Below are positions 3,044 through 64,000 of a DNA stretch of 64,000 bases, piece after piece. The position numbers and the translations under genes are program-made. Source of the stretch: Thuidium tamariscinum (taxonomy: Eukaryota > Streptophyta > Bryopsida > Hypnales > Thuidiaceae); NCBI GenBank assembly GCA_947034885.2, contig OX344749.2, positions 51,241,682 to 51,305,681 of the forward strand, given 5' to 3'. How positions within the stretch are numbered: the first letter of the stretch is position 1; each line of letters opens with the position of its first letter. The notes beneath the pieces were generated by a model, which saw only the letters and a program-made list of their open reading frames with translations, had not been told where the DNA came from and made no database searches.

Positions 3044-5508
3044 ATGAACAACACCAACTCCAGCTCCCCGATCCCGGTGGGTTTCCGATTCCATCCGACT
3101 GACGAGGAGCTCGTGGGCTATTACTTGCACGGCAAAGTGGAAAGGGCGCAGCGAGACCAGCTCATTCAAGAGCTGGACCTCTACAAAATCGAACCCTGGG
3201 ACCTCCACGGTAAGCAATCCAAATCTACAACTGTGCACAATACCTAGCTGAATTATACCACCACTCAACGAACATTGATTTCTGGCCAACTTGGTATTCC
3301 TAAAATCTCTTTCGCGCGTAGAAACGATAACAGCCTGCATGGAGGAATAATTTTCATATGCTCATATTCTTGAAATGGAAAGCGCCCGACGACTTTCAAG
3401 TGCCGGGGTCTCTGAAAACTAGCTAGGACGAGTGTACATCTAAGGTTCCGATGGGCAATTCAACCTGCCTGCAGTAATTTCACTGAAATCCGACATTCTT
3501 GTAATCAACACGAGGTCAATTTAGGATTAGTAAGAAAATGCACCGAGAGATTCCCTCTCTCTCTCTATACCTGAGTGGTTCTAGGATTGGTATTCCCGGT
3601 TTACATTGTGAAATGTTAGATCCTCGTTTTTTCGATCCCGGAGACTAGTTTTCTAGCTCACATGGAACCGCGCGAGAACACTTGACAGTTTATACAAACG
3701 GTTAGGAAACGGGCAATGGTTGATGGACCGATCGAGCATAGTGTTGGAACCAGTAAGTGCGCTGACAATGATGCAACGCGTCGGATCGGATGACTGAATG
3801 AATGATTTGCAGAAGTGTGCCGGATCGGCGATGACGCGGCGGAGAACCAGACCGACTGGTACTTTTTCAGCCGCAAGGACAAGAAGTACCCGACGGGCAA
3901 CCGGGCCAACCGCGCCACCACGGCGGGCTTCTGGAAGGCCACGGGAAGGGACAAGGCCATCCACACGCAGCACCGCCACGTGATCGGCATGCGCAAGACT
4001 CTAGTGTTTTACAAAGGACGCGCCCCCCACGGCCAGAAGTCCGACTGGATCATGCACGAGTTCCGACTAGACGAAGGAACCCCCGGCGGAGTCCCCAACT
4101 ACGGAACTACTACAGTAAGTTCTTCACTTTCGAACCCCCCTCCCTAGCTAGAGTAGTTCGTGTTATCGCTCAGTCACTAGAACTCCATTCGATCATCTGT
4201 AGTAGAACGATTTCTATCTGATTTACTTCCTGGACAATAGATTGCTGGTGGAGTCGATGGAGGTGGGTGCTAATTGAAGGGGAGGGCCAGAATTAATGAT
4301 ACCTCTTGAGTGATACCGACTAGAGGGTGTAATTAACTTCGAAAGAGCAAAATTGTAAGTGGCATACAGAGATTTAGTGTCATTTTCCCTGCCTTTCTAC
4401 TCGTGGAGTAGACGGAAAGGGCTAATACAGCACCTCCAGTGGTGTTCATTAATAGTAGAATGGTAGGCGTCGAAGGACACCCAATGAATTGAATGACACC
4501 CGAAGAGTAGGGTAGTTCATTTTCAGCTGAATGACAACCTGTGAAAGACACCGAAGTGTAGTGTAGTTCCTTTCCAGCGAATTGACACCCGAAGTGCCTT
4601 TTAGCCAGTTTGTGTTGTTACTCGGGTGGCATTCAATTCTCCCTCTACCTTTCAAGTCGTGTTTTGCAGGTGATCGTGCAAAGTATCCCCCTTCCTGTAC
4701 CGAACGTAATACCCGTAGATTGGAAGGTATCTGATTATGCACACTGCATGTTTCTATTTCCTCCGACTCTTTTGGTTTACGGCTGTAAGCACTGTTTGAC
4801 AATGTTACAAGTGGTTGTGTGCAGGAACTAGATGGGTGGGTAGTGTGTCGCGTCTTTAGGAAAACCAAAGTTTTTAAGACCAAGAGCCAAGACACGTCGT
4901 GCTCCTTGGACGAAGACCAGAACCAGCTGCTCCCAGGCGAGCTTCTGAGCCCTCCTCCCGCCGGAGTCAATCTCATCTACCACGACAACAACGCCCACCC
5001 TCTCCAGCACCCCAGCTTCACCACCAACCTCCCCTGCAAACAGGAGATCAGCGTGGACGACTACGGCACTCCCCCGCAAGACAGTCCCCCCTATTTCCCG
5101 GACTCGGCCCTCCTGCACCACCTCCAAGTAGACCAGGAGTTCCAGATGCGCCATCATCTTGCCAACTCTCTCGATCTCGATCTGGCGCCGTGTTCGTCCT
5201 CCTCGTTCCGAACTCTGAATCCAGCTTGCAGGCCCCGGGCTGAGCAATGTGAGTACTCCGTCGTCCCCTTCGACGACGCGAGATCCACGGTCACGCACGA
5301 AGCCAGCGCCTTCCCCGGGTTGCAATGTGAGGAGAGTCCGTTTTGGATGCAGCCGCAAATGGACGGTTGCGTGAGGACGGGGACGCGCGGGGACCAGACG
5401 TTAGCGGACGTCACCTGCCATGTGGGCCGCATGAAGAGGCAAGCCACGGACCATTTGACCTCGTCGATCAATATGGAAAGTCACTTGGTCCATCTTTGGA
5501 ATGTATAG
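3044..5508 (+). CDS. NAC-domain transcription factor, VNS (VND/NST/SMB) type, three exons
   Basis: Plant-specific DNA-binding transcription factor, expected in the nucleus. Exons are 3044-3209, 3813-4114 and 4825-5508; both introns are GT-AG (603 and 710 bp) with phases 1 and 0, giving 383 aa. The ATG at 3044 is chosen because the conserved NAC start [18 protein letters not shown] begins 11 residues later. The NAC domain spans about residues 9-170: EPWDLHE joins across intron 1, then [15 protein letters not shown] (70-84), [15 protein letters not shown] (89-103), [17 protein letters not shown] (113-129), DWIMHEFRL (133-141), and [10 protein letters not shown] (160-169) at the start of exon 3. 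The exact blocks [11 protein letters not shown] and [14 protein letters not shown] are typical of the VNS branch, which in known plants controls water-conducting, fibre and root-cap cell differentiation. The tail (170-383) is variable, acidic and Ser/Pro-rich, as for an activation region, with tryptophans at FWMQP and near the end (HLWNV). The family is certain; the subfamily is likely from motifs alone. Confidence 0.95.
3210..3812 (+). other. NAC intron 1
   Basis: The donor GTAAGC and the acceptor TTTGCAG join codon 56 (G + AA = Glu) in phase 1, a usual intron position in NAC genes. It contains a short CT microsatellite near 3555 and nothing else recognisable. Confidence 0.85.
4486..4639. 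repeat. Inverted repeat with imperfect tandem units inside NAC intron 2 (4115-4824)
   Basis: GAATTGAATGACACCCGA at 4486-4503 reappears inverted, with one mismatch, at 4622-4639. Between the arms the motif GACACCCGAAGNGTAGNGTAGTTC occurs as two diverged units (near 4494 and 4546). The layout looks like a small MITE or a foldback-prone tandem duplication lying in the intron, well away from both splice sites. No target duplication was found, so the mobile origin is inferred. Confidence 0.45.
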
Positions 5509-16144: not shown

Positions 16145-16909
16145 GAAAGAAGAATTTTGATTATTCGAAGCTAGGCTGAGCATATTAATTCTGGCCAATT
16201 AAGTATGTGAAGTCCAATGATGCGCACAGGTGCAATACCAAGCATATGTGAGTCAAGAAACAAATATAAGTGAGCCTGACTTTCTACAAATCTAGCGGCA
16301 TTCAAGCTAGCTTTGCATAAAAGGACTGTGGAGGCTGGTTTTCAGTAGAAGTCTCATCTGAAATCCATTTTTGCAATCAAAATTCTGGTAATGGAAGTAA
16401 TTAGTTATCATAAAAAGATGCATGAAAAACTTAGAAAAATTGTGATTTCGTCGAATTGGCACTACTCTGGGCTACTCAAATTGTGACCGTCCTTTGTACA
16501 GAGCTCCTGAACAAGGTCTGGACATTTGTCTATTTACATCTTTTTCATGAATTTTTCAATACCTTACTGGCTTGTTTTAATTTGCACATAGCTTTTGAAG
16601 GAACTCAAAGTTGAAGTTTCTTCCAGAAAAACTTCAAATTGGGTGAAATTTAACCTATTCCAGGCGGAATCATTGACGCGGCATGTGCTGCAGTGGGAAA
16701 ATCGTCCCATAATTTTCAGTACAAGAGAAGCAAAGGAATTTGACAACCGCTGAAAAAATATCCTGAATTGGCCCTTTTATAGATTTCTGTAATGGATAAA
16801 ACGCCTGCCTGGAAATCTGGAATGGGTTGTTTGTCCTTTCAATTTCTCAAATCACATCTACGGTCAAAGCAAATTTAATGTCTCAAACTTAGAGGTGTTC
16901 AATACTTAA

Positions 16910-17832
16910 CCCCTCAAGACAAGGACCATTGTGCATTTGGGAGACAAATTAGATTTTGCATAGGTACCTAGGGTCTCAATTTTTGTCTTTATTTTTTGAG
17001 GTTTTTTTGGAAAATAGAAAAACTGATTAGCTCGTTGGGAATATATATTTTTTCAATCGGTGCATAGAAACAAAAGTTATGCCCAAATAAGCTCAAAAGA
17101 AGGAAGAGGCAACAATCTATTTTTTTTTTTAAATTTGAGTTTTACAAAAAAAAATAATATTTTTTTTTATAGATTATATTTTTGTCTAAATGGAAAGCTT
17201 TGATTCATTACATTTGAATTTGTTATGAGAAAGTTATGGACAATTTTGTTTTTTGGGCAACTTAATCATATTTTTGAAAAATTAACTTCTAGAGTTTGTT
17301 TTGAATGTAATTTTTACAACTTTACAAAAAGAAAAGTTTCAAATTATGGTTTATTTTTCTTGCTAAAACAATCTCGCCATTGGAATTAGTGCATTTTAAA
17401 TTCATTTTAGAGATATTAATAGTTTAGATTTCATTCTATTTTGTACCTACTTCTATTTCTCAAATTTTTAAAGAATAAAAATTAAAAAATTCTGTATTTT
17501 TTTCCTAGACTCTCAACTTGATTCTCCACAATAAATATTTAAAGCTCAAAACTTTGTAGTGTAAAAAATTTAAGTTAAAAAGATTCAAAGTCAAATAATG
17601 GTATCCCAAAATGCCCTTAAAAAATTGTGTTTTCACTTTAAAAATAGATATCTTGCAAACTATGTAGTCTAAATTTTTTTTAAATTCCTACATATTTTTA
17701 TACAGTTAGGTAGGTATAGAATTCTACAATTAGATGTGCAAGAAAAACAATTTTCAAATTTTTTTACTCTTTTCTATAGAAATGGCAATTTTTAGTTTTT
17801 TTCACAAAATAAAAGCTTTGGTCTTTTAGATG
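16910..17832 (-). mobile_element. TTAA-flanked element T, copy T3 (inverted), piggyBac-like
   Basis: It is bounded by TTAA at 16906-16909 and TTAA at 17833-17836. The left tip CCCCTCAAGACAAGGACC corresponds to the right end of copy T1 read in reverse, and the right tip TTGGTCTTTTAGATG to T1's left end. The inner sequence aligns in reverse with T1: AGAAAAACTGATTAGCTC, TTTTTTCAATCGGTGCATAG and CAAAAGTTATGCC match T1 sequence around 44870-44960. Length is 923 bp, against 922 for T1. It is the oldest-looking copy and has no open frame. Confidence 0.75.
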
Positions 17833-18225
17833 TTAAAGGGATGTGAATGACATCAGATACAAAATTTCCAAAATATCTTTTTGAGTATTTTCTAACACTT
17901 GGATAATTACTAGCTCTACTACTAGAGCCTCTATCCCAATAGTATTATTCAATTCTTTTTTAACCCATAAATGATGCCAAATCCATTATATATTTGGTCA
18001 ATGAATGATAGAAAATCTTTTTTGTAGGATAGAAGTGCAATTATTCATCTTTGAAATTTTACATGAAATGAAGAGGTCTTGCTTGTATAGTAGTTTGAGT
18101 TCCAATAAGTGCTTTTGAATTTATTTAAACCTACTATTTATTTGAAACACAATGCCAAAAGGGATGATCTCTTTGGTCACCAATCCATTCTTGAAGGGTT
18201 AAGTAGTGAAGTCAAATGTTGTCAA

Positions 18226-21439: not shown

Positions 21440-22178
21440 TGGAGGCCCAAGAACTCCCTAATGTACACTTGTACTATTTGTTGCATTTTGTAATAGTATA
21501 CATGAATTTTTTTGGAGTAGTTTTAAATTAGGAAAGTAAATTTCTAAATTAAAGATTATGGTTAATATATGTGCCCTCAAGATGAAGGTACTCTTGAAGA
21601 AAAATCATGAAAAAATTCTCTAAGAAGGAGAACTAGAAAAGTGCCAAAATCAATAGAAAATTGATATTTCAATGGTTTAATTAATAAAAAATAGGAAAAA
21701 AGGTAAATTGAGAAGAAAAAAAATCTATTTGTAGAAACTTTACAAGGATGAACTTTCACCAAAAAAATCACCAAAATAAAAATTTTACTTGTTTTGAAAT
21801 GCAAGTAGAAAGAGTCTTACTTTGTAGATTTCTACACCATATAAAATTAACTACTTCTAGGATTACTTTATAGAATATCTATGAACCTACTAGAAGACCA
21901 TCTCCTCCAAATTTAATCTTTAAATTCATTTAATTAAGTACTTGATAGTATTAAAAATCCCTAAATTAGCAAACGTGACATAAAATTGGGGAACATTTTA
22001 AATAGTAATTTTTTTTAAACTTTGAAAATTTTTACAAGGTGTATAATTGTCACTCATAAGTGCTTTTCTTTTTTACAAATTTCAAGTCATTTGGGGTCAT
22101 GATGCAAAAGTTATGGCCAATAAACAAATCAATATGCAACGTGTGACATAAAATAGTCCAAGTGTTCCTTGCAATCAC
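21440..22178 (+). mobile_element. Family A nonautonomous transposon, copy A2
   Basis: The right end reads AAGTGTTCCTTGCAATCAC, and the left end is degraded (TACACTTGTACTATTTGTTGC). The interior matches A3 and A5, including ACACGTTGC/GTGACATAAAATAG near the right end and AAAAATTCTCTAAGAAGGAGAA near 21610. It supplies an uninterrupted version of the site where element T1 sits in A5: here ACAAATTTCAAGTCATTTGG (near 22076). Confidence 0.7.
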
Positions 22179-35260: not shown

Positions 35261-35987
35261 TCATTGCAAGAAACACCTATTGATTACTCAATTTTGTTGC
35301 ATTTTGTGACAATACTCATGATTTTCTCAAGACTATTATAAAATTAAAAAACTAATTTTTAAAAAAATTTAAAAATCTAAATAATGTATACACCTCTAAG
35401 ATGAAGGTTTTCACTAAAGGAAATGGATAGAAAAATTCTCTAAGTAGGAGTACTTGAAAAGTGCCAAATCTCAAGAAAATAGGTACTTTGATGTTTTAAT
35501 TAGGGAAAAATAGTAAAAATAAGTAAATACAAAAAGAAAAAAGTGACCATTTGCAACAACTTTATGGAGATGGCCATTCAACAAAAAACCCACCAAAATC
35601 ATATTTTATATATTTCAAAATAAAAGCAAAAAGAAGCTCACTTTGTAAACCTCCATACAACATAAAATTAACTATTTTTGAAAATCCTTCCTTGAAAAGC
35701 TAGAAGTCTACTAGAAAACCATCTCATCCAAATTTCATCTCAAAATCATTAAAAAAATGGTAATCCATAGTACTAAAAACCACTGAACTACAAAGTGTGA
35801 CATTCAATCGGAGTATAGTACAATATTTTTGAAAATTATGAAAAAAATTAAAGAAGGTGTATGATAGTTATAGATACCTTTTCTATAAATCTTGAGACAT
35901 TTGGAGCCAAAACACAAAAGTTATAGCCATAAAACAAATCAGTATGCAACGTGTGACAAAATAGTACAACGGTGTTTCTTGCAATGA
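35261..35987 (+). mobile_element. Family A nonautonomous transposon, copy A3 (uninterrupted, 727 bp)
   Basis: The tips are TCATTGCAAGAAACACC and the inverse GGTGTTTCTTGCAATGA. The interior aligns end to end with A5 once the inserted T1 element is removed; that also leaves A5 at 727 bp. The site homologous to the T1 insertion reads TATAAATCTTGAGACATTTGG near 35884. No open frame and no clear target duplication. Confidence 0.8.
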
Positions 35988-37753: not shown

Positions 37754-38465
37754 GTGATTGCAAGAAACACTTGTCCTTTTTTTCGTCCCCTTGTTAGGAG
37801 GTAGTTTTTTGCTCATAAATTTTGCATCTTTTGTTCATTTGACTTGAAACTTGAAATGAAGGTGCCTAAAAAAGTTTTACATTTTGTGTAATTTTTTCAA
37901 TATTTTTAAAATTAGTTTACTATTTTTAAACTGCCCCCAATTGGGTGTCTACTTTGGCCATTTTGGGGGGTTTAGTCCTATTTTTGACCCAAAAATGAAA
38001 ATTTTGAGCTGAAAATTGTCATGCAAGGACCTCACATAAAGTTACACAAGACCACAAAGAGATTTCTTGAAAATACTATACTGTTCAACCTCCACATGTC
38101 GTCAAAGTGGCTGACTTTGCACAAGTGTAGAGAATAGAATTAATTTTTTCCAAAGATGAAATTTGTTGGAAAAGAAATACCTTTACTTGGAAAAAAAATT
38201 CATTTTCATTTTTTGAATTTTTTTACTATTTTTACCAAATTAGTGAAAAAAGAGCTATTTTCATTGTATTTTCCATTGTCTATAACATGTAGAGAAAATT
38301 TTTCTTAGGTCTGAATTTCAAGAGACATGATATTCTCATTTCTCTTCAAATTATCTATATTTTTTCAATTTAAAATTTTTTTATTTCAAAGGGTCACAGG
38401 ACTTACAAGACTCACTGATTTTGAGCCATTTTGAGCCAAAACCGGTAAGTGTTTTTTGCAACGAC
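37754..38465 (+). mobile_element. Family A-related element, copy A4
   Basis: The left tip GTGATTGCAAGAAACACTTGTCC is identical to the tip of A5, and the right tip AAGTGTTTTTTGCAACGAC is its imperfect inverse. Length (712 bp) fits family A, but the interior is only weakly similar to A2, A3 and A5, so it may be a sister subfamily sharing ends. Confidence 0.6.
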
Positions 38466-43490: not shown

Positions 43491-45143
43491 GGTGATTGCA
43501 AGAAACACTTGTTCTATTTGTTGCATTCTCAACGAAACTCATTATTTTTTCTGGAGTACTTTAAAATTAGAAAACTAATTTTTTTTAATTTAAAAAATAT
43601 GATTAATGTATACACCTCTAAGACGAAGGTTTTCACCAAAGGAAATGGATAGAAAAAATCTCTAAGTAAGAGAACTTGAAAAGTACCAAATCTCAAGAAA
43701 ATAAGTACTTTGATTCAAAAATTAGTTAAAAATAGTAAAAATAAGTAAATAAAAAGTAATAATTTTCCATTTATAACAACTTTATGGAAATGATCAATCA
43801 CCAAAAAAACCATGAAAGTAATATTTTATATGTTTCAAAATGCAAGTAGAAAGAAGCTCACTTTATAGACTTCCACACCACATAAAATTAACTATTTTTG
43901 AAATTCCTTCAATGGAAAGTTGTATTTCTATAGTAGAAAGCACTCTACAAAATTTCACAATGTAATTTTTCAAAAAAGGTACTCAATAGTAGTAGAAACT
44001 TCCAAATTGGCAAGTGTGACATACATTTTGGGCCTATTTTTGGATAGTAAACTACTTTTGAAAATTACCAAAAAATCAAGGAAGTTGTATAATAGTCATC
44101 AGTACCTTTTCTATAAATCTTACCCCCTAAAGGACCATGGCCATTTTTTAGCCCAAAACCACTCAAAACTGCCATTTTTGCTCCATTCATCCATGAAAAC
44201 AAAAAAAAGTAAAATTTTAGAATCTAACCGTAGGATCTTGTACTTTACTTATCTAAGATCATGTGGTGAAAATTTCATGAAGTTTGACTGCATAGATTAG
44301 AAGATATGAGTATTCAAAGTTGGAAAACAAGGTTTTTTTAAACTTTGATATGCAACTTCATATGACTTTGTCCTCCATTTGTGGAAGTATTTTGCACTAC
44401 AGACCTTGAATTTAAATTTTTTTCTATTGAAGGATTGAGCTGAGACCTTAGGAAAAAAAATCCAAAAAAAGAAGACTTTTTTTTCATTCTTTAAAAAATT
44501 GTTAAATAGATGAAGGTCCAAGATTGAAAGAAAATTTAAATTGCAAATATCTTATAGATGGGATTGAAATACAATAATCCCAATGGTGAGATTGTTTTAG
44601 CAAACAAAAACAACCTTGTCCAACAATTTTTTTGGAAAAATTGTGAAAATTGCATTCACAAATGAATCCTATAAGTTATTTTTTCAAGAAGATGCTTAGA
44701 TTGCCCGAAAAATAAGATTGTTCATAACTTCCACATCACTAATCCAAATGGAATGAATCAAAACTTCACCCGTAGACAAAAATAAGATCTATAAGGGAAA
44801 AAAATTAATTTTTTAATTTTGAAGTTTTTGTAGATTTTTTTTCTGCCCAGCTACATGAAAATTATGCTTAAAATGGCATAACTTTTGCTTTCGGTCACCA
44901 ATTGAAAAAATAATAATATTTCCACGGAGATAATCAGTTTTTCTATATTATGTAAAAATTTCAAGAAAATTCATTAAAAATTGAAGTCACAAGTACCTGC
45001 CCGAAATCCCAAAGTCCCCCGAGGGGACTCTTGGTCCTTTAGGGGTTAAGTCATTTGGAGTTAAAACAAAAAAGTTATGGCCAAAAAACAGATCAACATA
45101 TGTCATGTGACGGAAAATAGGACAAGTGTTTCTTGCAATCACC
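43491..45143 (+). mobile_element. Family A nonautonomous transposon, copy A5, interrupted by element T1
   Basis: It has the best-preserved family A ends: GGTGATTGCAAGAAACACTTG at 43491 and its exact inverse ending at 45143; inverted identity continues for about 25 bp with one change. The body is split after TTTTCTATAAATC by a 922-bp TTAA-type element. Without the insertion it is 727 bp, the length of A3. Noncoding. Confidence 0.85.
44124..45045 (+). mobile_element. TTAA-flanked element T, copy T1, nested in A5; piggyBac-like
   Basis: The left tip CCCCTAAAGGACCA is the exact inverse of the right tip TGGTCCTTTAGGGG (14 bp). It is flanked by TTAC (44120-44123, one change from TTAA) and TTAA (45046-45049). 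Uninterrupted family A copies A2 and A3 show a single tetranucleotide (TCAA, TTGA) here, so the tetranucleotide was duplicated on insertion. A 15-base hairpin GTCCCCCGAGGGGAC lies at 45014-45028, 17 bp inside the right end only. TTAA target and C-rich tips are the known marks of piggyBac transposons. There is no transposase, so it is nonautonomous. Confidence 0.82.
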
Positions 45144-45738
45144 AAACAACAAAAATTGTGTTTGCTAAAAAATTGTCATTCCATATTAAAAAACACAAGG
45201 TAGTGTTAACAAAATATTTAATGTCAATGTATATCGCAAATTAAATACACTTAAAAAGTCATATATCTATTAAAGTATAAAAACTAGCAACTCAAAAAAA
45301 GTCATTTTTTTAATCAAAATTTAAAGGTTTGCAAAGATGTGATTATCCAAACTAAAAGATTTTAGGGGTTCTCACTACTACAAGTTTCACTGAACTGCTT
45401 GATTTTCCATGCACTATAAGTTTGTTTGTTTTTTGAACAAATGGGGAGCCCCCACTGCATTAAAAAGAACCAAGATACAAAACCGGCCAAGCCAAACGGC
45501 TGGACAGAGAACCAAGAACCGGAAAAAAAAACCCCCAGAGAAAACACTAACTAAATAAACAGAGACAAGGCCCTTTACTACTCCAATAAATTTGGTCACC
45601 CTGTCTGGTGGCCAACATTGGAGACTGAAGCCAACATTTGTCAAAGTTCTCCCAAAGAGAGGGAGCTTGATGAGGCCTAAGTTTAACTGCTTTACGGGTC
45701 TTTATCAGAATAGCACAGCCTGCATCAAGAAGTGTTCC

Positions 45739-47260
45739 TCAAAGAGCTTGGTGGATATAGTCTAGAGCCCATTGGATGTGGCTAAATACCTTAGTATTTC
45801 TAGCAATCCAAATTAGCCATAATGACGCACCACGTAGAACAGACCAAATGGTTTTAATCTTCATAAATCTGCGAGGAAGAGTTGAGCCAAAGATACATTG
45901 TGTTGCATGGAAGTGGGTATGAGGTCCTAACACTGGTGGAGTTCTACTAATATGATGAAGAATGGATTGAGCATATTCCCATACATCTTGGGCGCATTGG
46001 CAATCATAGAACCTATATATCGATGTCTCTTCAGCCCCCGAAGAACAACAATTGCAACGCGTGTCTATATTAGGATTGATACGAGCTTGCCAAGAATGAA
46101 CGGCAACAACATTGTGCCAAACCGACCACATGAAAGCTGCCTCTTTCTGGGAACTTGTTTTAAGCCAAATTTCTTTCCAATCAGGTGTACAAGACAAAGG
46201 TAGTATACCAGGCCATTTTGAAGGAATCGAACGTTGAAGCCTGCAATTATGTGTAAGTAATTTGCGGCCACATGTTGTAGAGTATGATAGTAAAGGAGTT
46301 CCATTGCTCCAACGCCATCTACCAGGGTCATAAGTGAGGGTTTGGATCCTCCCTACAAAAAAGAGGTCCGAAGATGACTTCCAGCCTTTTCGAATCTCAA
46401 TGACTTGAACCCTGTGTACAAAACCAATATATATGGAGGGGTTATTGGAGTTGGAGAGGTAAATTAAGCGCCTAGATAGAGGTTCGATGATTGCTTTATC
46501 TATGTGAGTAGGTAAGATGAGATCTTGGTGCCACAAATTGAGAATCCCAATGTCTTGGCTGACAACTTCCCATACAATAAGGGGGATTGGATCGTGTCGG
46601 GTAGCAAAAATACCAAGCCAATCTCTTTCTTGTAGGTTGGAAGAGACTTGAGTGAGCACATTCAACCATTCCATAGGAATTTTGGATATCAACAAGGCCC
46701 ATTTGTCCTGTTTGCCATCATGTAGTGAGAAGGTATTAGAGATATCAATCTATGACTTGAACGCCCAACTTTGCTCATCCCATAAATCATGAATAGTTTG
46801 TAAACCACTTCTAGCCAACTCCCTTGCTCGAGCTATAGAAAAACCAAAGTTGGACCCTATAAATGATGTAGACCACCACAAGCTTGTTGTGAGAACTTCA
46901 TCAAAATTGACTGGAGGAGAAAGTTGTATATGCTTAGTAAATCGCTTCCATGCTGAGGTAATGCGGTTCCAGGTCTTAGAGCCACGTATTACAGAGGGGT
47001 TGTTCACCATACGCCATGCTTCGAATGGGAACCAATATCCTTCCTTAGGATTGGGCTTCATTAAAAAAATCCTATATCTAAGGAGGATTTTGAGATTAGA
47101 TATGCCTGGTTCAATAGCAAAAATGATCCACTTAGCAAGTAGGGTTGTTAGAGAGATCTCTGGGTCAAGCAATTTGAGTCCACCAATTTCTTTAGGAAGG
47201 CAGCAATCATCCCAACTAACTTGAGTTCGTGTTGTAAATTCTGTTCCACTCCAAAGATAG
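45739..47260 (-). pseudogene. LINE ORF2 C-terminal region with zf-RVT-like domain
   Basis: One frame runs from YLWSGTEFTTRTQVSWDD (about 47260) through CCLPKEIGGLKLLDPE to WAFKS, where a TAG at 46750-46752 interrupts it. It then continues in the same frame for 318 aa to 45739. The last part has the Trp/Cys/His pattern of the reverse-transcriptase zinc-binding domain: KEAAFMWSVWHNVVAVHSW, CNCCSSGAEETSIYRFYDC, then CAQDVWEYA. The long second frame is intact despite the stop upstream, so decay is fairly recent. Confidence 0.88.
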
Positions 47261-47359
47261 TTGCGAAAACTACCTCAAATTGAACGAATGGCTTGAATAG
47301 AGCCACACCAAATGGCAATGAAATAATATAAGGTTGATAATAAAATAGCATTGATAATG

Positions 47360-47935
47360 GTAACCCGCCCTACCAATAATAGGCGTTGAGACGACCAATA
47401 AGTCAATTTTTAGTAACCTTTTGCTTAAGAAATTCATCCACGTTGGGTGTCTCTAGTGTGATTCCAAATGGTGCCCCTAATAATTTAGAGAGAGAATTTG
47501 GAAGAGCCCATGTCAAATCGAAATTACTTATCCAGTCTGGTAGCAATAATTTCGAGAACCAGTATGCAATGCTTTTTGACTAGTTAATGACTAAGCCAGT
47601 TGCCAATCCAAAACATTGTATCAAAGAGATAGTGTTTTGAAGGTCCTCCTCTTTGCCTATTATCGAAAATTTTGTATCATCAGCATACTGTGATATGAGT
47701 TGTTGGCGATCAGTCTCTGGTAATTGTATGCCATGAATTCGGTTTTGTCTTTGCTCCTTTGCTGCAGCTAGATTCATGGCTTCACCTACAATTAGAAAGA
47801 GATATGGAGCCAAAGGATAACCTTGTCTCACCCAGCGTTGAATATTAAATGAGGAAGTGGCTGTCCCATTAAGTAGGACAGTTGCAGAAGCATCCTATAA
47901 ATTCAAATGGAGGATTTAGTATCCTCCTATAGATT
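47360..47935 (-). pseudogene. LINE reverse transcriptase domain fragment
   Basis: Recognisable sequence includes a VRQGYPLAPYLFLIVGEA block (about 47835-47780) and QQLISQYADDTKFS with the catalytic YADD box (near 47690). It continues with FGLATGLVIN, then an in-frame stop, then LTWALPNSLSKLLGAPFG and a second stop after LKQKVTKN. The segment upstream of VRQG (NLxDASATVLLNGTATS) starts abruptly at about 47935. Stops show that it is dead. Confidence 0.85.
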
Positions 47936-48465: not shown

Positions 48466-48558
48466 AAGCATCCTTAGGGCCCCTTTTGCTCCTTCCTTTG
48501 AAGGTAAAGTTCTTTGGATAGCAACTCCCCAACTAGCCAAAGACTCTTTGTAAATTAA

Positions 48559-48667
48559 CCCCTAAAGGCCCAAGGCCACTTTTCTGTCAAAAACCATTCA
48601 AAACTGCCATTTTTGTTGTGTTCACTCAAGAAAACAAAACAAAAAACAAAAAACAAAAAACAAAAAA

Positions 48668-48731
<64 letters not shown>

Positions 48732-49551
48732 TTTAACTGTAGGATATTATACTTTATTTGTTTGGGATCATGTGGTAAAAATTTCATAAAGTTTGACTGC
48801 ATAGATCGGAAGATATTTGCATTCAAAGTTGGAAAAAAGAGTTTTTTTGAACATTGCTTTGCAATTTCAGATGACTTTAACACCCATCTATTGGAGATTT
48901 TTGCACTATAGACTTTGAATTGAGAAAATTTTGTATTGAAGAATTGAGTTGAAAGTCTTGGAAAACAATTTTTTTTTAAATGCTTGATTTTCATTCTTTA
49001 AAAAATTATCAACTAGACATACATCCAAGATTGAAAGAAAAAATAAATCATTAATAGCTCTAAAATGTGATCAAAATACAATAATTCCAATGGTGAGATT
49101 GTTATAGCAATCAATTTTAACCTTGTCAAGCAATTTTTTTTGAAAAATTGTGAAAATTGCATTAAGAAATTAATCCTATGTGTTATTTTTTCGAGAAGAT
49201 TCTCAAGTTGCTCAAGAAACAAGATTGTTTATAACTTTCACATAACTAATCCAAATGGAATGAATCAAAGCTTGACACGTAGACAAAAATGTAATCTACA
49301 AGATAAAAAATTTCAATTTCAATTTCAATTTTTTGTGGATTTATTATTCTGCTTGCCGAGTTGAAATTTTAGCTTTTTGTGGTATAACTTTTGCTCCCAA
49401 GCACCAATTGAAATAAAAATTGTATTCCCACATAGATAATCAGTTTTCCTATCTTATAAGAAAGTTTCAAAAAGTTTCACTAAAAATTGAAGTCATCGGA
49501 ACTTGCCCGAACTTCAAATTGTCCCCCGAGGGGACAATGGGCTTTTAGGGA
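48559..49551 (+). mobile_element. TTAA-flanked element T, copy T2; piggyBac-like
   Basis: It is flanked by perfect TTAA on both sides (48555-48558 and 49552-49555). The left tip CCCCTAAAGGCCCA is the near inverse of the right tip TGGGCTTTTAGGGA. The interior matches T1 throughout, e.g. GATCATGTGGTAAAAATTTCAT, AGTTTGACTGCATAGAT, TTTGCACTATAGAC and CTAATCCAAATGGAATGAATC. The 15-base hairpin GTCCCCCGAGGGGAC is conserved at 49521-49535, again only near the right end. It is longer than T1 (993 bp), largely because of a TA microsatellite. No transposase. Confidence 0.82.
48672..48728. repeat. TA microsatellite inside element T2
   Basis: About 28 uninterrupted TA units. They replace the short spacer found at the same point in T1, so expansion followed divergence of the two copies. 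The Tyr/Ile frames across it are artefacts. Confidence 0.95.
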
Positions 49552-49689
49552 TTAAACTAAACTTACTACGGGGGATTCAAGGAGGATTTATTTCAATCTT
49601 GAAAAGGAGAATGAATGGTTTAGGCTAGTTAAAAATGTCATGTGTTACTTGTTGGATTCAAAAACACATCAAAATCCAATCAACCTTAT

Positions 49690-54787: not shown

Positions 54788-57679
54788 ATGGGAAGCTCGG
54801 GGAACTTGAGCAAGTTAGTGATCCCGAAGCAGCATTGGCAAGAAGGCAAGGACAAGGCGGTGTACATGAATGTAGGCTACAAGGAGATGGGACCGGACTC
54901 TAGAGGCTCCGGGGTGCAGCAGCAGCAGCAGCAAGTGAGGTCCAAGCTGATGTGGTGGCTGGTGTTTAGTTTGTGCGCCGGTCTCGTGGTTGTGCCGTTT
55001 CTCATGGTCATGTGCGCCATTGATAACATTGAAGCCATGGGGTCCAAGCGCCAAGCTTGGATTTCGTTGGACGGACCTCCTCTGGGATTTATAGGGTAAG
55101 ACAGTTTCCTCCTCGTACAGTAACTCTTCATCTCCTTTCTTCCAATATGCGGCAACGATCTAGGTTTATTGCATTCCCTGTTTCCGCAAGACTCTTTACT
55201 TCTGAAAACAATGTCGTTTTTGCTGAGAACCGCATTATACGCAAGGCTCGTAATATCTGGAAACAATCTGGTTTTCCTGAAAACCCCGTTATTGGTAGGG
55301 CTCCTAACATCTGAAAACAATTTGCTTTATTGAGAATCCTGTTATACTGAAGACTCCGATCATCTGAAAAACAATTTAATTCTACTGAAAAATCTGCTAT
55401 ACTCAAGGCTGCCCGAATCTATGAAACAATTGAGTTATCCTAGAAGTCAACCTGTTTTTGCAATTGATTTTAACACAATATAAATTTGCAAAACTTTAGA
55501 TGGCGCTAATTTCTGGATTGTTGTAGGGAGCTCAAAGCTCACGGTCAATGGAACCTCTCCCTTACTGCACTGTGAAAGGAGACTTTACATTAATGCATCA
55601 GTATTGACGACTGTTATCGTTTAATATTCTACTCTGCCATTACGAATTTTCGAGGGTGTGAAGTTTAAAGTATTGAAGCTCATGGGGGTATGGGTTGAGT
55701 TCAACCTGAGGTATATGTTCACACTTGATGTCAGAGGTGGTGTTAGCGAAAACTGAATCCAGTCCAAAGGTTTCAGTCCCAAGACTCTCAACACCACTCT
55801 CAACACCAAGTGAAAACACACCTCGAGACTAAATCCAAGGGAAGGTGTATTGGAGTGCTATTGATGACTAATAAAGTTTGGTACTCTGCTCTGCCATTAC
55901 GAACGCTCAAGGTTTTGAAGCTCATGGAGTGTTTGTGTGATGTGTTGCAGTGTGCATTGGCAATGGAGTTTGTTGCGGGGCAGCATTCAAGCAGACTTGG
56001 TGACCACCAAGGCCTCCGAGGAAGCAAAGCCGAGAGCGGCCTTGCAAGGGATGGGGACACTGCTGCGCGTGGGAACAAAATCCATGCAGGAGCTCATGGT
56101 GGCGCATCTGACGGAGGACACTAGCAGCGAAGAGCTGCGACTCTTCCTGCGCTCGCTGCACCGAAGTGGCGCCACGGCCAGAGCCGACGTCGTGCTCCTG
56201 TTTCCTGGCGGACCCATGTCGAGCGCCATGGGGAACGTCATCCAGGAGGAAGAAGACAGCTTCCAGAAGTTACTGGTGGAGTTTGAGCCTAAGGATGGGG
56301 AGGAGGAAGCTATGGCGTCCCAAACTGACGACTCCGCATCTGCAGGTATGAATCCTGTGCAATGCAATGCAATCCTCAATCACTCCGCAGATTGAGTCGA
56401 CAGACTGATAGACCTTTTGTTTTTCAAATCTAAAAGTGCGCTTTCTATGTGTCGCCAGATTGACTGCCGCACTGATTCATCATTGAAGCTTGTCTTACGT
56501 ATACTGCAAAGATTGCAAAGATTGTAGAATCTTGTCTTCCGGATACCATTGCATCTAGTCTGATAGGATGAAAACTTATCTTTGCGAACCAGGAAGAATG
56601 TAAAACCTGTCCGTGTTTCTAACGCAAAATAACGGGACATCGCAGACGCCACCCCATCAATCGCCTCCTTCAATGCAACAGCATTCAAGAGACGCACCGA
56701 TGACGACACCCAACAAGATCCGTCTCCAGAGATCATCTGGGGTCGACGTCAACCCTCACCTTCGCCACCAACAACAGACAACCCCAATCCCGACACCACA
56801 ACGAACCCCATCACCCCAACCAGCTGGGCATCCTACGGCAGCATCGTGTCCTTCGACACACAAGAGCTCGACCCCCAGGACGCCTTACAAGGCTTCTTCG
56901 ACACGCCCCCAGTACAGCTCCGTCGCTGGCTCTGCTACGACATGCTTCTCGGCATGGTCAAGTCCCGCTACAAGAACGTCCTGGTGTCGCAAGTGAAAGG
57001 CGTCTACATTCTCGGCGACGCCTTGTCCGTCCTACGCAAGAAGCCCACGCTCTACCTCACAGCTGAAGATCTGCAATGGCGCGACGCAACCCAAGAACTT
57101 GTAAAAATGACGCCCATCTCGCAGCCTGAAGTGGAGACCACGCCGACTGTGGTGGATCTTCCGTCGGCGCGGTACGAGTCCATTCGACGGAGCTTGCGGG
57201 AGAGCAGCAAAGTGAAAGTTCAAGGAGAAGTGGCGCAGTTGGGGTTGATGCAGAGCGTTTATGGGATGCAGATGTGGAAGACGCTGGCGGAGAGTGACAA
57301 GGAGCGGGTGGTGGTGAGCTCTGCGGTGATTATGGGGGGGATGCAGTTTGTGCGCGGGTTGGCGAGCAAGATGACTTCGGAAATTGTGAGGGTGGCGATG
57401 GAGAGGAAGAATCGGCGACACTTTCATGATAAAGCGGTGATCAACATGTGGATGCTCAAGAAAGCGGCGCTCGGAAAGCGTATTGCCGATCATCTGAAAG
57501 TGGTGAAGAATCAAGACTCTGTTGTGCAGACTTCAATTCAATCTTTGCCATCGTCGCTTGGATCTGTGTTGCCGTTGCGAAATCGGCGTCGTTATCTTGT
57601 GGTGCACGATCGGGAGGCTCCCGCACTGCGTCTGGCGTTGTGCACTTTGGATTCCCGGCTCTATCAACGCTGCTCGTAA
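54788..57679 (+). CDS. Single-pass membrane protein of a conserved plant family of unknown function (DUF7780-like), three exons
   Basis: Exons 54788-55095, 55951-56345 and 56646-57679 join in compatible phases (2, then 1) at GT-AG sites to give 578 aa. The ATG at 54788 gives a short basic/polar N-terminus with a Gln run (44-49), then a membrane segment at about 55-77 (LMWWLVFSLCAGLVVVPFLM), so a type II topology is likely. Conserved blocks are MQELMVAHLTEDTSSEELR (148-166), LHRSGATARADVVLLFP (172-188), YGSIVSFDTQELDPQDAL (298-315), RRWLCYDMLLGMV (327-339), NVLVSQVKGVYILGD (345-359), SSAVIMGG (459-466) and MTSEIVRVAM (477-486). From memory these match the Arabidopsis proteins loosely annotated 'calcium ion-binding' (such as At4g12700), which are of similar length. 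The layout recalls a Golgi glycosyltransferase-like fold, but that is inference; no catalytic residues can be named. The variable Pro/Thr-rich linker (269-293) opens exon 3. Confidence 0.88.
55096..55950 (+). other. Intron 1 of the membrane-protein gene
   Basis: The donor GTAAGA and the acceptor GTGTTGCAG give phase 2 joining (GG + T = Gly103). It contains a diverged tandem repeat around 55200-55400 built on CTGAAAACAATNT...TGAGAANCCNGTTATANNNAAGNCTC units of about 55 bp. CTCTGCCATTACGAA also occurs twice (55630 and 55890). Confidence 0.75.
55190..55430 (+). repeat. Diverged 55-bp tandem repeat in intron 1
   Basis: Four units can be aligned: CTGAAAACAATGTCG.., CTGGAAACAATCTGG.., CTGAAAACAATTTGC.. 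and CTGAAAAACAATTTAA... Each is followed by a GAGAACC/GAAAACCCC-like block and TTATAC/TTATTG. There is no coding sense. Confidence 0.6.
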
Positions 57680-63684: not shown

Positions 63685-64000
63685 TTTAAATAAATTATTT
63701 TAAATAAATTATTTTAAATAAATTATTTTAAATAAATTATTTTAAATAAATTATTTTAAATAAATTATTTTAAATAAATTATTTTAAATAAATTATTTTA
63801 AATAAATTATTTTAAATAAATTATTTTAAATAAATTATTTTAAATAAATTATTTTAAATAAATTATTTTAAATAAATTATTTTAAATAAATTATTTTAAA
63901 TAAATTATTTTAAATAAATTATTTTAAATAAATTATTTTAAATAAATTATTTTAAATAAATTATTTTAAATAAATTATTTTAAATAAATTATTTTAAATA
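63685..64000. repeat. 14-bp AT minisatellite running off the window
   Basis: A near-perfect array of the unit ATTATTTTAAATAA, about 22 copies, begins near 63685 and is still continuing at the last base. The preceding sequence (ATTTAATTTAATATTTAAA) looks like degenerate edge units. It contains only A and T and would melt easily. Confidence 0.95.

Follow-up and report, generated by a model that had tools for sequence, protein, structure and literature searches.

A TTAA-flanked, non-coding transposon family in a moss genome is very probably of the piggyBac superfamily

The window (the whole stretch of DNA that was analysed, 64 kb) carries three copies of a transposable element, here called T, together with genes and other repeats. 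A NAC gene lies in pieces at 3806-5505, with its NAM domain at 3806-4111 (E 1.4e-26) and a GWVVCRVF continuation near 4834, and a 348-aa frame at 56633-57676 matched DUF7780 (PF25002, E 4.2e-41). The interval between the first two T copies holds a degenerate LINE reverse-transcriptase fragment (45370-47409; zf-RVT, E 2.4e-9). The sequence that T1 entered has relatives at 21938-22178, 35753-35985 and 37754-37966, which are members of a dispersed repeat. At the end of the window, a perfect 14-bp tandem array (TTTAAATAAATTAT, 22.6 copies) occupies 63685-64000 and runs off the last base. Comparison of the window with Rfam returned no family at the gathering threshold.

T1, a non-autonomous piggyBac-type element of 922 bp, lies on the forward strand at 44124-45045. 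T2 (48559-49551, forward strand, 993 bp) represents a second subfamily with a (TA)n stretch inside, and T3 (16910-17832, reverse strand, 923 bp) is a more diverged, inverted copy. These positions, the inversion of T3 and the lengths agree with the first-pass annotation, as does the homology of the interiors: T1 and T2 were 77% identical across 832 bp by pairwise alignment, and T3 was about 70-71% identical to both across 544-550 bp. The left flank of T1 is TTAC (44120-44123), which is TTAA with one change, and its right flank is TTAA (45046-45049); TTAA flanks both sides of T2 (48555-48558 and 49552-49555) and of T3 (16906-16909 and 17833-17836), so that TTAA was confirmed on five of the six sides. 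T1 has a left terminal inverted repeat CCCCTAAAGGACC on the forward strand (44124-44136) and a right one on the reverse strand (45033-45045; GGTCCTTTAGGGG as read on the forward strand). A subterminal palindrome, GTCCCCCGAGGGGAC, is located at 45014-45028 in T1 and recurs in T2 at 49521-49535. The ends had also been described as shared by all three copies, which held in part. An exact CCCCTAAAGGNCC stands at both T1 ends and at the left end of T2, three of the six, and the right end of T2 (TCCCTAAAAGCCC) and the ends of T3 (CATCTAAAAGACC on one side, CCCCTCAAGACAAGGACC on the other) are decayed. With up to three mismatches allowed, the tip motif was matched 14 times in the window against 7.6 expected; since 4 of 100 shuffles also reached 14, the motif inside the window is by itself weak evidence. 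The homology of the interiors, taken with the genome-wide data below, settles that the T copies form one family.

The host was identified from two of its proteins. The host LEAFY fragment scored 238 bits against PDB 4bhk, which we take to be moss LEAFY, and at most 173 against four other LEAFY chains found. Within KPKMRDYVHCYALH, the host fragment and 4bhk both carry a D and 9fwy carries a Q; D at this position is characteristic of mosses, and H of most other land plants. Among single-domain chains, host LHCII matched best with 8htu and 7xqp (461 and 460 bits, against at most 441 for others), and two long multi-domain 9vfj chains gave 535 (in two stretches) and 445. An excerpt of PMC12965295 gives 7XQP as from the moss P. 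patens, and one of PMC10005731 gives 8HTU as PpPSI-L. Judged by the LEAFY and LHCII comparisons, the host is a moss.

The host genome (G000; 363.2 Mb in 19 contigs, of which ten are large, at 24.3-54.2 Mb, and an eleventh measures at least 14.5 Mb) was searched with T1. At least 40 full-length matches (1-922) were obtained at 96-100% identity, T1 itself included, in a list of 41 matches for which 40 of 6340 first-look candidates had been scored. Flanks were examined in the best 20 full-length matches by score, T1 itself excluded. TTAA stood directly outside both tips in 20/20 of these fetched copies, all 20 of which had a CCCCT-type left tip and a TTTAGGGG right tip, and none lacked TTAA on both sides. 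TTAA starts at 0.85% of window positions, which corresponds to a chance expectation of 0.34 in 40 flanks. Beyond the TTAA, the six bases on each side varied among the 20 copies, the sole irregularity being that position +5 was never C.

Genome-wide tip counts provided an unselected test of TTAA, unlike the fetched copies, which are the best T1 matches. The exact 13-mer tip, CCCCTAAAGGACC, occurred 5353 times (3 for the reversed control), and the same tip preceded by TTAA, TTAACCCCTAAAGGACC, occurred 4780 times (0 for the reversed control), so that 89% of exact tips are directly preceded by TTAA; the other 573 lack an exact TTAA there. The expectation of TTAA at insertion sites across the genome was thus borne out by the fetched copies and the exact tips alike. 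The 28 bases of the T1 left end had 40 exact occurrences, and 102 when up to two mismatches were allowed (control 0), and the T1 subfamily itself is thus small. The thousands of related tips therefore represent many subfamilies and at least one full-length piggyBac, an element of 7113 bp. Among 21 T1-type copies (210 pairs), the median pairwise K2P distance was 0.028. Their consensus has no open stretch longer than 84 codons, and T encodes no transposase. The T1 subfamily is recent and non-coding; because the 21 copies are the best T1 matches, they understate the age and variety of the whole T family. Since T is non-autonomous, the absence of a transposase of its own is no bar to its membership of piggyBac as a derivative.

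Empty sites were sought by joining the flanks of the 21 T copies at one TTAA and comparing them with the window and the fetched loci. Eight of the 21 queries aligned across the junction, giving 16 alignments to related repeats without the insert. Five of these contained exactly one TTAA, among them a 272-bp alignment at 93% identity and a 239-bp alignment at 89%; the remaining 11 had a 4-mer other than TTAA, diverged or beside small gaps. The window also contains three relatives of the T1 site, whose 4-mers are TTGA, TCAA and TCAA.

The genome encodes piggyBac transposases in number. PF13843 (DDE_Tnp_1_7) exceeded its curated cut-off at 116/116 scored places (best E 5.7e-80), which are a subset of 659 candidates and set the number of such places at 116 or more; 0/14 control genomes were matched. 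Four transposase proteins compared with DDE_Tnp_1_7 gave E values from 7.7e-77 to 4.5e-80. Thirty transposase domains fell into three deep clades, named A, B and C, and identity from one clade to another was about 36-45%. In the alignment of 11 transposases, the catalytic aspartates D532, D621, D739 and D742 (L093 protein numbering) were invariant and aligned with those of PDB 6x67 and 9c0f (phmmer E 5.8e-20 to 3.7e-30). Two C-terminal cysteines were likewise invariant, and three more and one histidine were conserved in at least 90% of the 11 sequences; Pfam zf-Tnp_2 appeared below its cut-off (E 0.75) in one of the four proteins. Several of the moss transposases had long variable N-terminal extensions in the alignment. 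The first three fold matches of a structure model were piggyBac and piggyBat chains (6x67, 9c0f), followed by Tn5; they serve as support only, because the predicted structure is poor (mean pLDDT 48). Viral contigs scanned with the transposase alignment yielded no relative (two pattern matches, none confirmed).

Eight elements were read whole and spanned 4.9-7.1 kb. All eight had TTAA flanks and inverted CCC tips, with 12-16 of the first 16 bases matching in each tip pair. The first four measured 4888, 5082, 5088 (the clade-A family) and 5938 bp, and the clade-C elements 5135, 5165, 6445 and 7113 bp. The clade-A length rests on the boundary shared by 11 copies, which gives 5088 bp; the tip pair with the best score, at 6063 bp, was rejected. 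These 11 copies each end at TTAA and then continue into a different flank. Ten of them differ from one (L040) by 1 base (nine copies) or 2 bases (one copy) of 3984, which indicates a very recent burst. Going by this near-identity of copies, the burst shows that some piggyBac elements of the genome moved very recently, and one clade-A family seems to have jumped very recently.

Tips were also sought around the transposases. Both tips were found within none of the first 30 transposase loci (4.1-4.2 kb); the elements read later are longer than these loci. In clade-A transposase neighbourhoods the tips were mostly CCC-NNN-AACGCC, which is not the tip of T. The search for a 3' tip within 1.5 kb was negative for 11 of 30 transposases, and seven of these 11, when extended, had candidate tips (the weakest at 7/12 bases). 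Sixteen further 3' flanks, from clade-C-like profile ranges, had a CCCC-type tip in 12 cases, five of which begin CCCCTAAAGG exactly, and no tip in the stretch fetched in four.

One clade-C element, of 6445 bp within C7:17555555-17564055, carries both T ends. Its 5' end matched the T1 right end at 34/36 bases, GTCCCCTCGGGGGAC included, and its 3' end matched the T1 left end at 24/27 bases, against 22/36 and 17/27 at the best other places in the same locus. The T1 left end is thus the counterpart of the transposase 3' end in the full-length relatives, and the T1 right end that of their 5' end. Further inwards, this element and T1 remained similar, at 85% across 99 bp from the right end and at 70% across 214 bp from the left end, and in two other clade-C elements the match to the T1 left end extended to 311 bp at 70%. 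The subterminal palindrome of T is present at the 5' end of the C7 element and of these two other elements. The transposase frame of the C7 element is broken into pieces of 415 and 316 aa, with two stops within the domain. The other two elements with the palindrome, 97.4% identical to each other, have open frames of 877 and 774 aa from stop to stop and matched the T tips at 23/36 and 17/27; the L053 element matched at 20/36 and 16/27. The middle of T (~530 bp) was unmatched in all four clade-C elements used for comparison. With both T ends and the palindrome, the C7 element identifies T as a non-autonomous element with clade-C ends. The first-pass annotation had supposed that a source of piggyBac-like transposase exists or existed in this genome; transposases are present at every place scored, among them those of elements with TTAA-CCC ends, and one such element matches both ends of T. 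No autonomous relative of another superfamily was seen.

Other assignments of T were weighed against these results. TTAA duplication is not unique to piggyBac, as Kolobok and Sola3 also duplicate TTAA, and T could in principle belong to Kolobok or to a TTAA-using branch of Sola and resemble piggyBac at its tips only. An excerpt of PMC9033089 lists Sola1 for Physcomitrella, which lends this reading some plausibility in a moss. It is nonetheless very improbable, as elements whose ends match T encode PF13843 transposases, and the C7 element with both T ends largely refutes it. PIF/Harbinger-type MITEs are common in plants, and the flanks of T do contain TTA and TAA; the proposal that T is a Tourist-type MITE of this superfamily with a 3-bp TTA/TAA duplication can be given almost no credence, however, since all four bases of TTAA were fixed on both sides in 20/20 copies where this reading would have a 3-bp TWA duplication, the tips of T are symmetric when the duplication is read as 4 bp, and the element that carries both T ends is a piggyBac. 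That the piggyBac sequences reached the assembly as animal or fungal contamination might be suspected, given that piggyBac is best known from animals. The transposase matches are instead distributed over the ten large contigs (C1-C10) and T copies lie on the same contigs, T shares the window with a NAC transcription factor gene, and the copies lie in repeats found elsewhere in the genome, all of which makes contamination extremely improbable.

A further alternative accepts the piggyBac ends of T and disputes the mover, which would be a transposase of clade A or B, or of an extinct relative, and not that of the clade-C elements found. The best end match (C7) has a broken frame, the near-identical copies belong to a clade-A family, and the tips of many clade-C subfamilies differ from those of T. 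The clade-A and clade-B tips seen, on the other hand, depart from T within the first 9 bases, and the likeness of the clade-C element in C7 continues into the subterminal sequence of T and its palindrome. We regard such a mover as unlikely.

The piggyBac reading of T offered by the first-pass annotation is supported. Very probably, T belongs to the piggyBac superfamily as a non-coding, non-autonomous transposon of this moss, with clade-C ends and most likely moved by a clade-C transposase. Its ends (~100 bases on the right, 200-300 on the left) belong to the resident clade-C piggyBac lineage. A clade-C transposase would most likely bind the two unlike ends of T, which have CCCCTAAAGG tips and the palindrome at one end, cut T out and join it into a TTAA. 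The TTAA target would in this way become the 4-bp duplication that flanks T; TTAA is what is seen at the flanks, and a single TTAA at some of the empty sites. Excision without a scar is established for animal piggyBac, and by analogy the excision of T may restore TTAA in the same manner. T may still be mobile today. Near-identical piggyBac copies occupy different TTAA sites in this genome. The broader proposition of a long-established, diverse and still mobile moss piggyBac, with at least three deep lineages, a clade-A element that is active at present and numerous non-autonomous passengers, is one on which our confidence is evenly divided. If true, a land plant would have an active piggyBac system native to it.

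Animal piggyBac elements have a TTAA target and CCC tips. The moss elements resemble piggyBac (6x67) and piggyBat (9c0f) in these two features and in PF13843, the four aligned aspartates and perhaps a C-terminal cysteine-rich segment; they differ in their moss host, in their length (4.9-7.1 kb), in the long variable N-terminal extensions of several of them and in being distant in sequence. Animals also have MITE-like non-autonomous piggyBac derivatives, which are short, non-coding and present in many copies. T is similar to these in its shortness, piggyBac ends, lack of coding capacity and many copies, and is unlike them in being long for a MITE (~922 bp) and in its middle, unmatched in the four clade-C elements. 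The TIR superfamilies of plants differ from piggyBac in transposase and target duplication, and the moss system departs from them in both. What T shares with the TIR superfamilies treated in an excerpt of PMC9033089 is its nature as a DNA transposon with terminal inverted repeats.

That excerpt of PMC9033089, a 2022 review, lists six land-plant TIR superfamilies (Tc1-Mariner, hAT, Sola, MULE, PIF-Harbinger and CACTA), with piggyBac absent; the word piggyBac occurs 0 times in the review. Excerpts of other papers do name it: PMC4438587 has PiggyBac among the superfamilies found in all groups studied, PMC10794571 has it among plant superfamilies, and a fern repeat table in PMC6890710 records a trace (122 kb). 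The earlier belief that piggyBac is rarely or never well documented in land plants is contradicted in part by these three. An excerpt of PMC10813416 speaks of the isolation of piggyBac from plants and gives no detail. None of the full-text matches listed described a moss piggyBac; subscription papers were mostly out of scope of that search, and an earlier report may exist. PMC10619864, which came up as a moss and piggyBac report, was rejected, as the matching text in its excerpt was the word 'piggybacking'.

T and its relatives are a known superfamily in an unexpected, little-documented host. What makes the finding of real interest is the abundance and diversity of the full-length elements, together with the near-identity of those in one family. 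The moss elements widen the host range of piggyBac and raise the question whether they are ancient residents or came by horizontal transfer. They may also provide a native piggyBac tool for plants. The sequence rule of TTAA followed by CCCCTAAAGG could serve to find related elements in other plant genomes, where they are perhaps filed as unknown repeats.

Two observations concern the placement of copies. Near position 208 of one locus (L042), a clade-A copy is inserted at a TTAA that immediately adjoins a T-like tip (CCCTAAAGGACTAAC), and the TTAA of that tip itself probably served as the clade-A target. At C8:23933884 and C8:23941055, and at C3:9545996 and C3:9555552, equal-scoring transposase or T copies lie close by in opposite orientation; these pairs are perhaps local inverted duplications.
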